DNA from: Apostichopus japonicus | Taxonomy: Eukaryota > Echinodermata > Holothuroidea > Aspidochirotida > Stichopodidae | Direction: 5' to 3' | NCBI RefSeq assembly: GCF_037975245.1 | Contig: NC_092576.1 | Coordinates: 23,164,611-23,228,610 of the forward strand | Length of the DNA stretch: 64,000 nt | In this document: positions 9,939 through 63,571 of the stretch, piece after piece | How positions within the stretch are numbered: the stretch's first letter is position 1 | Layout of the letters: each line of letters begins with the position of its first letter | Notes under the pieces: model-generated | What the model was told of the DNA's origin: nothing | Databases searched by the model: none | What the model saw: the letters and a program-made list of their open reading frames with translations, nothing else | Made by a program: the position numbers and the translations under genes

Positions 9939-10022
9939 CTAAGTCAATGCTTTCATCGGTACGTATGTGTCGTTGACGCTGTTAGCATTCATATCACGAA
10001 CAGGTGTGGTACCTTTAAATAT
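9939..10022 (-). CDS. Gene A terminal exon with YVPM tail
   Basis: An 84-nt last exon in phase 0 ending in TAG. It encodes 27 residues including [15 protein letters not shown] fits the Y-x-x-M motif bound by SH2 domains of the class IA PI3-kinase p85 subunit when phosphorylated. The gene B terminal exon ends with DTYVPMESITGG, so the motif is kept although the surrounding tail has diverged. Confidence 0.85.
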   Translation of the reverse strand: MFKGTTPVRDMNANSVNDTYVPMKALT

Positions 10023-13000
10023 CTGAAAGTAAAAGAATGAATAAAGTGAATTAGTACCTTCTAAAATGGATGCAATTGTTTCGATTCCATTGTAGGTTGT
10101 GATTTTTTTGACAACGTAGGTAATTGCTAGCAGGAAAATAATCGTGAACATTATATTAATTGTCCTCACGCATCAAGGAGAGCACTTTATAGTTGAAGCA
10201 TAGGTAAACTTTGTGAGCACTGACGACAGTGATCATGCTTTAGGAACTTTCAACCAGTAAATTAATCAATAATAATAATCAAAAATAATCAGGCAGTTAG
10301 ATTTACGACTCTTTTGCGACCGTGAATGTGAGCGAAGACCGTCAGGGGGTTATGGATTGCAACTCTTACGTCGGGTGGCTCCAATTTATCAGTTTAACTC
10401 CAATTTCGAATCTTTTTAGCTTAGAAAATCATTTCAGATTAGAAAACCGTAGATTGCTCTGGGATGAATGAACGCCTTATTATGACCCGGTCAGGCATCG
10501 AACCCCCAACCTCCCGATTTCCAAGACTCATCGCTTCAAATAGCACCGCCTTTATCCACTGGGCCATAACATCCGCATTAATTTAATTTCACGCAACCAC
10601 TTACGCAATAAATGACGTAGCATTTCGCTAATACACCGTCAAATCTAAGTTTTTCCCAACATAAGCAGACATGTAACTCTTTAAATGCCTTCCCACTTTC
10701 CTTGTTAAAGCGAAACTAATGATTTGTTAATGAACAACCTTTTTTGATAGTCCTTCATTTGTGCTTTTTCATTTTTATATTAAAAATAGACCCTGGCGTT
10801 GTTAAGAGTATGCATGTGAGAAAATGCATCTGATGTAGGTAACACAGGTGAAGAACATTACATGAAAAGGGATAGATATACTGGAAAATTAAAATAATCA
10901 GTGGCTTTCAAGAAAATGCTCAATCCTAATTTGATGAAATAGATCTAGTATGGGAGTACATGTAGGCCTCAAGTTAGTGTTCACCTTTGTCTTAAACGAG
11001 TGTTTTATAAAGAATACATTATTAGACGATTTGAATTACTGTCACGAAATCATACACTTTGACAGGCAATATGTCATTAATAAAAAATAACGAGACGCGT
11101 TAATTTATTGAAGTGACTAAATTTCATTATTATAGATGTGTCACTTTCAAGTTGTCCGTATTTTTTTAAAGGTAATTTAAATGTTATGTTTTAGTTTCAA
11201 AAGATGTAACATAACATTTACCAAAAAAAGGATACTGCCTACTTTGAAATGTTAGACAATGCTACTTTCGAATGTTGACTTTATAGTGTTGAAAATCGTT
11301 ATGATATTCTAGATAGATGATTGAAAACGCGTATACGCTAGAACACCGGATCTGTGAGAACTTAATCTAATCTGAAGCTTTCGTTTTGACAAGGAAGTAA
11401 TTAAACGATGTTCTGGCATACATTAAAATGACATGGGTTTTACTTTGCTGAAAGTCAATCATCTAGTCATATCTAAAGAACATGTATGTATCAGACTGGG
11501 AGTTACTCATTATCATACTACAGTGCAGTACAAACACTTCTGTTGTCATAATATGTTTGTTGTGATTTTATGAGTTGTTTGGCTTACCTTTTCGTATGAC
11601 AAACGAAGTTCTTTCATTTTTGGTCGAAGTTCGTTATCTACATTCAGACATTTCAAAAGCTCATCATTTCTGTAATAGAACGTGAATTTTAAGAAGATGG
11701 TTACGAAATATTCCAAAGAGAGTGTTTAAGCCGTAATGAGCTGTAAATTTTGTTTCATATGTGATTAAAATTACCTCAAGTCTTTGTAACTCTCCGGCAA
11801 GTTGTCTGGTGCTTCAAACACCAAGATCCCGTATCCATTGACTTCATTGGGGTTGCTAATAAAAGGTGAACATCCTGTTAAAAAGAATTACTACTTCAGA
11901 ATACTTTCCTTTTTCCAATAAACATTCTCCCAATACAAAAGCCAAAAACAAAAATGGAATTATGATGTTTGGGTAGAAACATTGTTGTGTGACGTTACGT
12001 AATTCTGACTACCTGTTTCCACTTAATCATTCCTTGTAAATACAGCGTTATTGTGGTACAGATAACTTACCCGCATATATGTAGCGCAAATATATACATT
12101 GTTCTGGTACTGGGGATACATTGAAGAAGTCAATCGGAGAACTATGTTAATCAATACAGAGGTGCACTCATCACATTTTCAAGTCATTTACTCCTGAACC
12201 ATAACAAGGCCAAAATGGTTTTCATTAAAACAAAACAAGTTGAAGTTAATTTATGTCATTTTAAGAGGTAAAAGTTTCTTCAGGGTTTTGAAATGGAACC
12301 TTGTCCCAAACCAAGGACATAACGTATATTGTCTCACAGTTTGAAAGATTTTCAATGCTATGCCCTCTAAAGGTAAGAATAATATATATTACGGTTAGGT
12401 ATTTATCTAAGATAAATATGGAAGGATTTACCTAACATTATCTAATGCTCTACCTAGTGTGGCAGAAAAATGCGTGGCATGGCAAACTTGATATGATACT
12501 TAACATAGCGTTTGGTTAACAACATTCTACCTTTATGATACCACGACGTTTAACACACCTTAACGAGACAGTACAGCGTAACGTAACACAAAACCATAGA
12601 GTAATGTTTCAATGCAGAATACAAGGGTGTGTGAGGAATATCCTGACAAAGGGAGTAGTTGCATATTAGTACGGAATTTTATTCAAAGACTATTTTGTGG
12701 ACTGTGAATTTACGCTTAACCTTCTTAAACACACATATTTATTGCTCTAATGTTGCTGTTCTGCACTCCATGAATAAAGTACCGCCATCGCTTACCACTC
12801 GAGAGTATCTTCCACAGCACAATCGCCACACACCAGACATCACTGTACTTGTCGTACTCCTTACGTGAGACAGATTCAGGGGGTAAGTCCTCGTCAGACA
12901 TCTGAATATTCAGAAACAAATATTAACAATTCGTGTTTAATTCAAATGCTGTACAGTTATAACGATCGAAAGTGAAACTAAGTAAATGAATAATTAACTT

Positions 13001-63000: not shown

Positions 63001-63571
63001 TTACATATTGATTGTGATTGTGATAGAAAATCACCCTGTATGATATGGTATATATGACACACGTGCATTGGCAACTACTACATGCACCATTTTATATAAC
63101 TGATACATGCAGTAAGATATATATATATATATATATATATATATACATATATATATATATATATATATATATATATATATATATATATATATATATATAC
63201 ATATATATATTGAGTTGTCCGAGTTGTCTGACGATCGCTAAGACGCGTGAAACTCCGAGTTACAACTACTAGTGTTCCACTAGTCTCAACCAGTATCAAT
63301 ATATATATATATATATATATATATATATATATATATATATATATAAATATATATATATATATATATATATATATATATATATATATATATACACAAATTA
63401 GCATTCAAAGATGTTAGTCTTTGATCACGTTTCGATAGTGCCAATTACAACAAGTAAAACAATCCCTCCGTGTATGATATTAAAATGCAACAGAGCGAAG
63501 ATAATAAGAATAAAGGAAATGCTTGATGTTTCTTTTCTCTGCAGAGGAAGAAACTACAAGGTGCCACACAG
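53613..63571 (+). CDS. Gene D: membrane-anchored Ig-NACHT-LRR receptor (3' end unresolved)
   Basis: Paralogue of gene C with the same exon order: 53613-53670, 53873-54196, 55074-55721, 56734-57081, 57620-57745, 58112-58173, 58285-58324, 58950-60469, 61699-61907, 62061-62134, 62520-62587, 62744-62785, 63545-63571. Phases are continuous throughout, giving about 1182 residues up to the last exon seen. The first exon (58 nt) and the first leucine-rich exon (209 nt) equal those of gene C. The terminal exon is not securely found and probably lies near or beyond the window end. Walker B departs from consensus, unlike gene C. Hammerhead-bearing SINEs lie in the intron 55722-56733. Confidence 0.86.
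55788..55917. repeat. (TA)n microsatellite
   Basis: About 130 bp of uninterrupted TA repeats in the gene D intron, directly at the 3' side of the minus-strand hammerhead SINE. Confidence 0.95.
55941..56120 (-). mobile_element. tRNA-derived SINE with hammerhead ribozyme, copy 1
   Basis: Reading on the minus strand: TTTATACGCTTTAA, then ACACACCAG, a tRNA-like head with A-box-like TGGTCGAGTGGT and B-box-like GTTTCGATTCC, then the hammerhead core, then gtggaatttttctggtgtg-type sequence and a GAATTACTATATA end. Short inverted termini ACACACCAG / CTGGTGTGT flank the body. Split A and B boxes are the internal RNA polymerase III promoter expected of a SINE. Copy 3 at 56351 is the same element in the other orientation. 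Confidence 0.8.
55989..56030 (-). ncRNA. Hammerhead ribozyme (copy 1)
   Basis: Minus-strand core: CUGAUGA (56024-56018), stem II GUCC/GGAC around loop CAAAA, GAAA, then CCGGUC with predicted cleavage after GUC (between 55995 and 55994). Stem I pairs CUUCGC with GUGAA (five pairs including one G-U). Stem III can only be the self-complementary ACCGGU with no loop, so a dimer is likely to be the active form, as for minimal type I hammerheads. Confidence 0.8.
56124..56213 (+). mobile_element. Truncated hammerhead SINE, copy 2 (3' part only)
   Basis: Starts inside the ribozyme (gaagaaaccggtcgtgaag) and continues to cataccacttgcatacacat. The CUGAUGA half is absent, so no ribozyme activity is expected. 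It lies head to head with copy 1. Confidence 0.75.
56351..56548 (+). mobile_element. tRNA-derived SINE with hammerhead ribozyme, copy 3
   Basis: Runs from tttatacgctttaata through A-box-like TGGTCGAGTGGT (56384-56395), B-box-like GGTTCGATTCC (56427-56437) and the ribozyme (56441-56482) to gaattac followed by a (TA)n tail to about 56548. It matches copy 1 closely over its length. Confidence 0.82.
56441..56482 (+). ncRNA. Hammerhead ribozyme (copy 3)
   Basis: CUGAUGA at 56447-56453, stem II GUCC (56454-56457) with GGAC (56463-56466) around CAAAA, GAAA at 56467-56470, then CCGGUC with predicted cleavage after C56476. Stem I pairs CUUCG with UGAAG; the first pair (A with G) is mismatched, unlike copy 1, so cleavage may be weaker. 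Type I layout with a palindromic stem III. Confidence 0.8.
57620..57745 (+). CDS. Gene D transmembrane exon
   Basis: A 126-nt exon, phase 1 to 1. [20 protein letters not shown] precedes a hydrophobic run beginning [19 protein letters not shown] and ending CSK. It sits between the last Ig exon and the basic linker, as in gene C. Confidence 0.85.
58112..58324 (+). CDS. Gene D basic juxtamembrane linker exons
   Basis: 58112-58173 encodes [20 protein letters not shown] with a final E and a GTATCA donor, matching gene C. 58285-58324 encodes [12 protein letters not shown]. Phases (1 to 0, then 0 to 1) match the gene C linker exons. The [10 protein letters not shown] cluster lies directly inside the membrane. 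Confidence 0.7.
58950..60469 (+). CDS. Gene D NACHT exon with altered Walker B
   Basis: One 1520-nt exon, phase 1 to 0, ending AAA|GTAAGC. Walker A is GGAGYGKS (about residues 613-620). Walker B reads [10 protein letters not shown]: the first aspartate stays, but the DE pair of gene C (LDGYDE) is replaced by [34 protein letters not shown] and [14 protein letters not shown] align with gene C. ATP binding may persist while hydrolysis is probably weakened; this is inference from the motif. The frame is otherwise fully open, so it is not an obvious pseudogene. Confidence 0.92.
60513..60578. repeat. Exact 33-bp tandem duplication
   Basis: The unit ttataaaaatgcttagtttc plus 13 further bases occurs twice in a row directly after the gene D NACHT exon, in the following intron. 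Identity suggests a recent slippage or duplication. Confidence 0.85.
61699..63571 (+). CDS. Gene D C-terminal leucine-rich exons (incomplete)
   Basis: 61699-61907 encodes [17 protein letters not shown] and ends GLAGL. 62061-62134 continues [20 protein letters not shown]. 62520-62587 encodes [19 protein letters not shown]. 62744-62785 encodes [14 protein letters not shown]. 63545-63571 encodes RKKLQGATQ. Each has a counterpart in gene C with matching phase, except that the last ends in phase 0 rather than 2. The final coding exon is missing; an acceptor at 63976-63978 would give a stop within five codons in phase 0, but this looks nothing like the gene C end. Confidence 0.65.
63117..63391. repeat. 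Two long (TA)n arrays with a 90-bp spacer
   Basis: TA arrays at about 63117-63210 and 63298-63391, separated by unique sequence containing gagttgtccgagttgtctg. Open frames of alternating Y and I here are artefacts. Located in the last visible intron of gene D. Confidence 0.9.

Follow-up and report, generated by a model that had tools for sequence, protein, structure and literature searches.

Membrane receptors that join immunoglobulin (Ig) domains to a NACHT module are already known in sea cucumbers. AjNLRC4 from Apostichopus japonicus has an Ig ectodomain, a transmembrane (TM) segment, and a cytosolic NACHT domain, and is located in the coelomocyte membrane; it binds microbes through the Ig domains, dimerizes upon infection, and, through the NACHT domain, binds actin and promotes phagocytosis (PMC8699970). 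In this report, we describe a window of 64,000 nucleotides from the same species (bases 23164611-23228610 of contig C16) with four genes, A to D, in which a gene for an Ig-TM-NACHT receptor (C or D) twice stands head to head with a gene for an Ig-TM-pseudokinase receptor (A or B). We document the architecture and orientation of this pair, its recurrence across the genome, the dead-kinase motifs, and the YxxM tails. C and D share with AjNLRC4 the layout of extracellular Ig domains, TM segment, and cytosolic NACHT, but AjNLRC4 is reported to have two Ig domains, two TM segments, and no LRR, whereas the models of C and D hold up to four Ig-like domains, one visible TM helix, and a tentative LRR-like exon. 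C and D are placed with the AjNLRC4 type solely by architecture. The word kinase does not occur in the main text on AjNLRC4 (PMC8699970). AjNLR-new is, like C and D, an echinoderm membrane protein with NACHT and Ig domains, but its reported topology is the opposite, with NACHT outside and Ig inside (PMC13133943).

Head-to-head receptor pairs and pairs of an NLR with a pseudokinase are known from plants. RRS1/RPS4, RGA4/RGA5, and RGA1/Rpg5 (with an integrated kinase) are arranged head to head about a shared intergenic region and show coupled evolution, as does the pair described here (PMC9528088), but they consist of two intracellular NLRs; here only one of the two proteins is NLR-like, its partner being a pseudokinase receptor, and membrane localization is predicted for both. 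ZAR1 with ZED1 or RKS1 provides an NLR that works with a pseudokinase, as is proposed here; the ZRKs sit in a cluster of their own, and head-to-head linkage with ZAR1 is not mentioned in the available parts of that source (PMC9539561). A and B resemble HER3, a receptor pseudokinase whose YxxM sites, once phosphorylated, bind the p85 subunit of PI3K, but HER3 has several such sites and an active partner, HER2 (PMC3248195). No record of an Ig pseudokinase receptor joined to an Ig-NACHT receptor was found in the open-license papers searched, and we regard the combination as a variant of the paired-receptor kind. To our knowledge, the kinases of the ZAR1 system belong to another family, and neither an Ig ectodomain nor a comparable TM pairing is known there. 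The ectodomain of HER3 differs from that of A and B, and we know of no link between HER3 and NACHT genes.

Exon chains were built from splice signals and reading frames, and the signal peptides and TM helices of all four genes were judged by eye, without a predictor. The spliced models reproduce the gene order A(-) C(+) B(-) D(+) of an earlier sequence-only reading of this DNA, and they are free of stops across the exons resolved, except for the trailing LRR-like exon of D. They also bear out, together with the Pfam matches (V-set and NACHT for C and D) and the exon lengths and phases, that A and B are paralogous Ig-TM-pseudokinase receptors and that C and D are paralogous Ig-TM-NACHT receptors. 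The two paralogies follow from exons of identical length in the same phases: in A/B the Ig1 (343/343), Ig2 (318/318), and three kinase exons (168/168, 111/111, and 120/120; the other two are 149/176 and 106/115), and in C/D the signal exon (58/58), with ectodomain introns of phase 1. The start codons of A and C are 0.63 kb apart and those of B and D 2.05 kb, in agreement with the distances of about 0.6 and 2 kb given previously.

The genome searched comprised 671.6 Mb on 35 contigs of one assembly. Its mitochondrial cox1, on contig C35, has AAA codons at asparagine sites conserved among animals (such as those in FSTNHKD and PRMNNMSFW), in keeping with the mitochondrial code of echinoderms; flatworms use this codon likewise, but the AjNLRC4-like layout of the Ig-NACHT genes favors an echinoderm. 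Searches with NACHT exons, the PF05729 family, kinases, and Ig exons were merged into lists of at least 200 NACHT loci and at least 112 kinase clusters. These lists lean toward relatives of the window genes, and the NACHT lists miss at least four NACHT exons that were read beside kinases (C16 41.73, 45.82, and 45.84 Mb; C1 13.31 Mb), and the pair frequency is a lower bound. Kinase and NACHT exons were found head to head at nine places outside the window, on two contigs (Table 1). Both partner architectures were read in the DNA at C16 24.10-24.12, 4.45-4.48, 6.71-6.73, 40.24-40.30, and 44.96-45.00 Mb, where the kinase exons at 40.24 Mb rest on search hits. NACHT partners with their Ig exons were read at C16 41.73 (NACHT exon partial), 45.82, and 45.84 Mb and at C1 13.31 Mb; the partner kinases were read at 41.71 and 45.85 Mb and are represented by search hits alone at 45.80 Mb and at C1 13.30 Mb (a single exon).

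Within 20 kb on the 5' side of a kinase, the nearest NACHT-gene element (a NACHT exon or an Ig1 exon) among the matches listed was on the opposite strand in 11 cases and on the same strand in none, and the ratio was still 9:0 over all contigs when the two pairs of the window were left out. On the 3' side, three opposite-strand and two same-strand elements were listed within the same distance. The NACHT exon itself was read in nine of the 11 cases (the two of the window, 4.45, 6.72, 24.10, 41.72, 45.81, and 45.85 Mb, and C1); at 42.10 Mb only Ig exons were read, the NACHT exon being outside the DNA fetched, and 42.19 Mb consists of search hits only. The 11 cases are not fully independent because they include the window pairs and likely duplicates (42.10 and 42.19 Mb). 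Seen from the NACHT side, a kinase lies within 60 kb 5' of 11 of the 200 listed loci, in every case head to head, with one kinase shared by two of the loci. On C16, ten head-to-head cases were counted within 20 kb; 2000 circular shifts gave 0.98 on average and at most 6, and none reached the observed number. On the basis of the 11:0 orientation and this shift null we reject chance adjacency, and with the nine further places they carry the proposal of conserved divergent pairing well beyond the window.

At C16 45.80-45.85 Mb, two pairs stand in the mirror order K(-) N(+) N(-) K(+), where K is the kinase gene and N the NACHT gene; the unit is therefore the head-to-head pair and not an alternating array. 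We rejected convergent pairing (C with B) as a general description of the unit, since these mirrored pairs share heads and not tails; in addition, the exons resolved at the 3' ends of C and B are 5.4 kb apart, which is more than either head-to-head distance in the window. We have little doubt that the recurring pair is a real unit.

The proposal that the pair had been duplicated as a unit is supported by the matching exon structure and by a correlation of distances between the partners, but a simple local duplication does not fit, because the NACHT modules of C and D are only 34% identical. Identity of the D module is 95% to the NACHT copy at C16:22.85 Mb and 51% to the 24.12 Mb module, the C module is 50-54% identical to many NACHT exons elsewhere in the genome, and among the paired places identity to C falls to 26-28%. 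Across 512 codons, the comparison of D with the 22.85 Mb copy gave a dN/dS of 0.82, based on 9 synonymous differences and 28 others, numbers too small for a conclusion. For eight pairs, the kinase distances were compared with those of the partner Ig ectodomains, giving a Mantel r of 0.49 (exact p 0.013). This test covered the pairs for which DNA of both partners was available, which excluded 40.24, 42.19, 45.00, and 45.81 Mb and C1; it used the 6.72 Mb kinase minus one exon and included one pair (42.09 Mb) in which the NACHT exon was not seen. Taken by exon, the correlation was 0.38 for Ig1 (p 0.018) and 0.55 for Ig2-3 (p 0.007). The B/D pair clusters with the 24.1-Mb pair on both sides, as do the 41.7 and 42.1 Mb pairs with each other. 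Co-duplication of the partners is, in our judgment, very probable.

Ten kinase copies were read, eight from head-to-head places and two from arrays without a listed NACHT neighbor. At what we take to be the canonical VAIK, HRD, Asn, and DFG positions, assigned from the general kinase consensus, all ten have the VAIK lysine replaced by Thr or Ser, the catalytic Asn by Lys, and DFG by DFC; HRD is replaced by HPG in eight copies, HPD in one, and HPC in one. The best PDB matches of the A kinase are tyrosine kinases such as EGFR, CSK, and BTK. Judged from these sequences, the uniform replacement of motifs looks like a selected noncatalytic family rather than decay.

A YxxM motif was found in the tail of the kinase gene at six of the eight places searched, in a last exon behind a phase-0 acceptor. 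It reads YVPM in A, B, and the 24.10 Mb copy, YTPM at 6.72 Mb, YEKM at 41.71 Mb, and YLPM at C12 21.58 Mb. The last exon of B ends in SDTYVPMESITGGRTL, and the tail at 24.10 Mb continues for a short stretch after TDNYVPMKG. No tail with YxxM was found within the DNA fetched at 4.45 and 42.10 Mb. Other acceptors are possible for the tail exons of A and 6.72 Mb, and phase 0 alone was tried in part of the search. An exon with a phase-0 acceptor and Y[VTIE]PM before the stop occurs three times in the whole window, on both strands, a count that fits one acceptor at the tail of A and two at that of B. By analogy with HER3, the tail may dock PI3K, a tentative proposal to which we give slightly less than even weight.

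The predicted structure of the C NACHT module (from 11 sequences, mean pLDDT 74) has NLRC4 as its best PDB match (Table 1). Walker A (GYGKS/T) is retained in all 11 NACHT sequences aligned. C and six others have DGxDE as Walker B; the motif is LDGFNR in D and the 24.1-Mb relative, LDDYEE in the 6.72 Mb sequence, and LDHYHE on C1. D and the 24.1-Mb relative have therefore lost the second acidic part of Walker B with Walker A retained, and from these differences a division of the NACHT partners into active and degenerate ones is possible. In an alternative reading, the pseudokinase receptor acts as an inhibitor or decoy and holds the NACHT receptor off until its own Ig domains or kinase fold is perturbed, similar to plant ZAR1 and its pseudokinases; the degenerate Walker B, which would fit a split between sensor and helper, counts in favor of it. 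The dead-kinase signature conserved in all ten copies and the ZAR1-ZRK precedent (PMC9539561) speak for this alternative as well, but the conserved YxxM tail points to positive signaling through PI3K, and we consider an inhibitory partner unlikely.

The exons of the four genes are collected in Table 1. The A model has 11 exons and 655 amino acids without a stop (signal peptide-Ig-Ig-Ig-TM-kinase), plus the phase-0 last exon, the stop codon of which falls at the first base of the interval originally flagged. B has 10 exons without a stop and, unlike A, a fourth Ig exon. The B C-lobe exon that should precede the tentative last kinase exon was not located in the window, and a search for an additional exon between TM and kinase gave none for A and weak candidates for B. 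C has seven exons and 1080 amino acids without a stop (signal peptide-Ig-(Ig-Ig)-Ig-TM-NACHT and the tentative LRR-like exon), and D has the same layout, with no stop from the signal peptide through NACHT. No in-frame join was found for the trailing LRR-like exon of D, where seven stops occur, all after the NACHT exon. A linker exon between TM and NACHT was sought in C and D, and no candidate was consistent across the two genes; the direct join is phase-compatible in both. The models of C and D are resolved as far as their LRR-like exons (32221 and 61907), which for D is short of the end of the flagged interval at 63571. The Ig evidence is uneven: the Pfam cut-off is passed by Ig3 of A, by Ig3 and Ig4 of B, and by a single V-set domain in each of C and D, and the remaining Ig exons are weaker. 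C Ig1 and D Ig4 are without any Pfam match, and their assignment as Ig therefore rests on homology between exons.

Table 1. Exons and intergenic regions of genes A to D (window coordinates) and the places outside the window where the pair recurs
Feature	Position	Strand	Evidence
A exon 1: start codon (21925), signal peptide (by eye), Ig1	21583..21925	-	0 stops; Ig_3 6.8e-4, under Pfam cut-off
A exon 2: Ig2	20713..21030	-	spliced model; weak C2-set_2 0.0055
A exon 3: Ig3	19882..20187	-	spliced model; C2-set_2 2.8e-5
A exon 4: TM helix (by eye)	19197..19358	-	hydrophobic stretch, spliced model
A pseudokinase	11588..16235	-	exons 16235-16068, 15290-15180, 14997-14849, 13122-13003, 12901-12796, 11874-11775, 11669-11588; PK_Tyr_Ser-Thr 2.1e-26; motifs
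A last exon: tail with YVPM, stop codon (9939)	9939..10022	-	phase-0 acceptor, frame open up to stop
A/C intergenic region, putative shared promoter	21926..22552	.	627 bp between both start codons
C exon 1: start codon (22553), signal peptide (by eye)	22553..22610	+	spliced model
C exon 2: Ig1	23630..23956	+	spliced model; homologous to D Ig1; no Pfam match
C exon 3: two Ig-like domains	24319..24981	+	V-set 1.8e-6, second domain, spliced ectodomain
C exon 4: Ig4	25885..26223	+	spliced model; weak C1-set 0.0075; phmmer to SYG-2 1.5e-4
C exon 5: TM helix (by eye)	26881..26988	+	spliced model
C exon 6: NACHT module	28783..30320	+	NACHT 4.8e-17; predicted fold closest to NLRC4, E 7.6e-17
C exon 7: LRR-like (tentative)	32013..32221	+	in frame; similar to D exon; no Pfam LRR match
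B exon 1: start codon (51564), signal peptide (by eye), Ig1	51222..51564	-	spliced model; Ig_3 0.003, under Pfam cut-off
B exon 2: Ig2	50478..50795	-	spliced model; weak C2-set_2 0.025
B exon 3: Ig3 (acceptor at 50024)	49695..50024	-	spliced model; C2-set_2 3.6e-5
B exon 4: Ig4	48476..48799	-	spliced model; C2-set_2 1.7e-4
B exon 5: TM helix (by eye)	47681..47788	-	spliced model
B pseudokinase	40900..43940	-	exons 43940-43773, 43496-43386, 43045-42870, 41612-41493, 41014-40900; PK_Tyr_Ser-Thr 1.1e-22
B last kinase exon (tentative)	38764..38845	-	splice sites; weak match to A exon, E 0.058
B last exon: tail with YVPM, stop codon	37597..37692	-	tail exon search
B/D intergenic region, putative shared promoter	51565..53612	.	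2.05 kb between both start codons
D exon 1: start codon (53613), signal peptide (by eye)	53613..53670	+	spliced model
D exon 2: Ig1	53873..54196	+	spliced model; at least 150 scored relatives in genome
D exon 3: two Ig-like domains	55074..55721	+	V-set 2.3e-6, second domain
D exon 4: Ig4	56734..57081	+	similar to C Ig4; spliced model; no Pfam match
D exon 5: TM helix (by eye)	57620..57745	+	spliced model
D exon 6: NACHT module, degenerate Walker B (LDGFNR)	58950..60469	+	NACHT 5.2e-15; alignment
D LRR-like exon (tentative)	61778..61907	+	similar to C exon
Nine head-to-head places outside the window	C16 4.45, 6.72, 24.10, 40.24, 41.72, 45.00, 45.81, 45.85 Mb; C1 13.3 Mb		

A reverse transcriptase remnant (Pfam RVT_1 2.3e-7) lies between the NACHT and LRR-like exons of C (window 31026-31502, minus strand), and an inverted-repeat element occupies about 55942-56650 in a D intron flanked by Ig exons; compared in translated pieces, its arms mostly show about 87-97% similarity. 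Elsewhere in the genome, seven Ig1-like exons stand in tandem on the same strand, about every 1.3 kb, at C15:4241472-4249527. In the NACHT arrays of C7, 16 of the 17 matches to the Ig4 exon contain stop codons and the listed NACHT frames are mostly open; this exon may have been lost from those genes. The N-lobes of four pseudokinase copies at C16 19.20, 19.34, 19.52, and 20.08 Mb score equally, and three of the copies also share their exon spacing; for none of the four is a NACHT-gene element listed within 60 kb 5'. At C16 8.9-9.4 Mb, pseudokinase clusters on the plus strand have runs of Ig4-like exons on the minus strand, mostly 3', with no NACHT among the matches listed, and this is perhaps another receptor arrangement.

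A number of observations weigh against a joint function of the two receptors or against the generality of their pairing. The expectation that the two families are linked was half borne out within this genome: linked pairs recur, but both families also occur without a listed partner. No listed kinase is present within 60 kb 5' of 189 of the 200 listed NACHT loci, and 87 of the 112 listed kinase clusters have no NACHT-gene element in the same interval. The kinase arrays on C12 and C4 have no NACHT nearby among the matches listed, and within 300 kb of the closest listed NACHT relatives of C, at C16 33.2, 32.9, and 18.9 Mb, the lists contain no kinase. Kinases alternate with NACHT genes at C12 24.76-24.92 Mb, where three of the kinases have their nearest NACHT on the 3' side, in convergent orientation. 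When the interval 5' of the kinase is widened to 60 kb, 19 opposite-strand and six same-strand neighbors are found among the matches listed (none of the latter within 20 kb and four within 40 kb); the same-strand neighbors may be Ig exons of the kinase genes themselves. The YxxM tail is not specific to pairs, because the unpaired kinase at C12 21.58 Mb also bears one, and the copy at 45.85 Mb retains the catalytic-loop Asp in its HPD. A conserved intergenic motif was sought and was not found; the search gave a single 16-bp match (E 0.04). The Ig exons found for the partners at 40.24 and 45.00 Mb are separated by about 43 and 26 kb, respectively, which makes a simple shared promoter implausible there.

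One alternative is that the partners are co-regulated only, with a shared regulatory region placing both receptors in the same immune cells and the proteins acting separately. The genes that occur without a listed partner fit this explanation, as do the distances of 0.6-6.4 kb between innermost exons or start codons at five of the places read, the two of the window included. Co-regulation would not, however, need the correlated divergence of the partners, and the two wide gaps keep the orientation without plausible promoter sharing. We consider co-regulation as the whole explanation to be rather unlikely, whereas shared regulation of the partners as such is somewhat probable and their functional cooperation is evenly balanced.

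Three further contrary results concern the history of the pair. The two pairs of the window are not the closest relatives of each other, the Ig4 exon alone is not correlated with the kinase distances (r 0.16, p 0.18), and C16:22837001-22850537 is a recent 97% duplicate of B Ig1-Ig3 and D that ends before the Ig4, TM, and kinase exons of B. Pairs thus also break, since this copy omits one arm's membrane and kinase exons. Such a segmental duplicate without the B kinase, the clustering on C16, and the minority of listed genes that are paired would suit genomic hitch-hiking, in which segmental duplication copied one old head-to-head neighborhood many times within immune-gene clusters without selection for linkage. 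Orientation and order are nonetheless preserved in the pairs whose NACHT modules are only 26-28% identical to C, including one on another contig, and the absence of same-strand neighbors within 20 kb 5' and the shift null also speak against hitch-hiking, which we judge improbable. The orientation and divergence evidence shows that the linkage has long been kept; selection is not proven by it.

Our preferred reading, to which we assign somewhat less than an even chance, is that both pairs in the window are copies of one two-gene unit that has been duplicated repeatedly and encodes a two-subunit membrane immune receptor. A shared intergenic promoter would lead the same cells to express both partners, and the two receptors would bind microbes or each other via their Ig domains and would hetero-oligomerize. 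The NACHT arm would drive oligomerization and actin assembly, as published for AjNLRC4, and the pseudokinase arm would be the regulated partner, itself unable to phosphorylate. The tyrosine of the YxxM tail would be phosphorylated by another tyrosine kinase and would then recruit PI3K, as in HER3, and engulfment would begin only with both arms engaged. We infer the joint function and the immune role, helped by the published work on AjNLRC4. The large and divergent families of Ig exons could also suit an allorecognition pair, in which polymorphic Ig receptors distinguish self from non-self between individuals, but the closest studied protein of the C/D layout, AjNLRC4, binds microbes, and allorecognition is very unlikely indeed.

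Paired NLRs are a principle of plant immunity, and a head-to-head unit that recurs in an animal genome and brings an NLR-type receptor together with a pseudokinase receptor would add an independent example, located at the cell surface. The strongest form of this proposal is an obligate, gene-paired, two-receptor immunity in animals, in which a membrane NLR and a membrane pseudokinase co-receptor form a family of matched pairs with their own ectodomains, as an independent counterpart of both the plant paired NLRs and the ZAR1-pseudokinase complex; we regard it as doubtful, though conceivable. If true, the pair would provide a direct route to engulfment, from YxxM to PI3K and from NACHT to actin, and the Ig-NACHT phagocytic receptors of the AjNLRC4 type gain a testable candidate partner.

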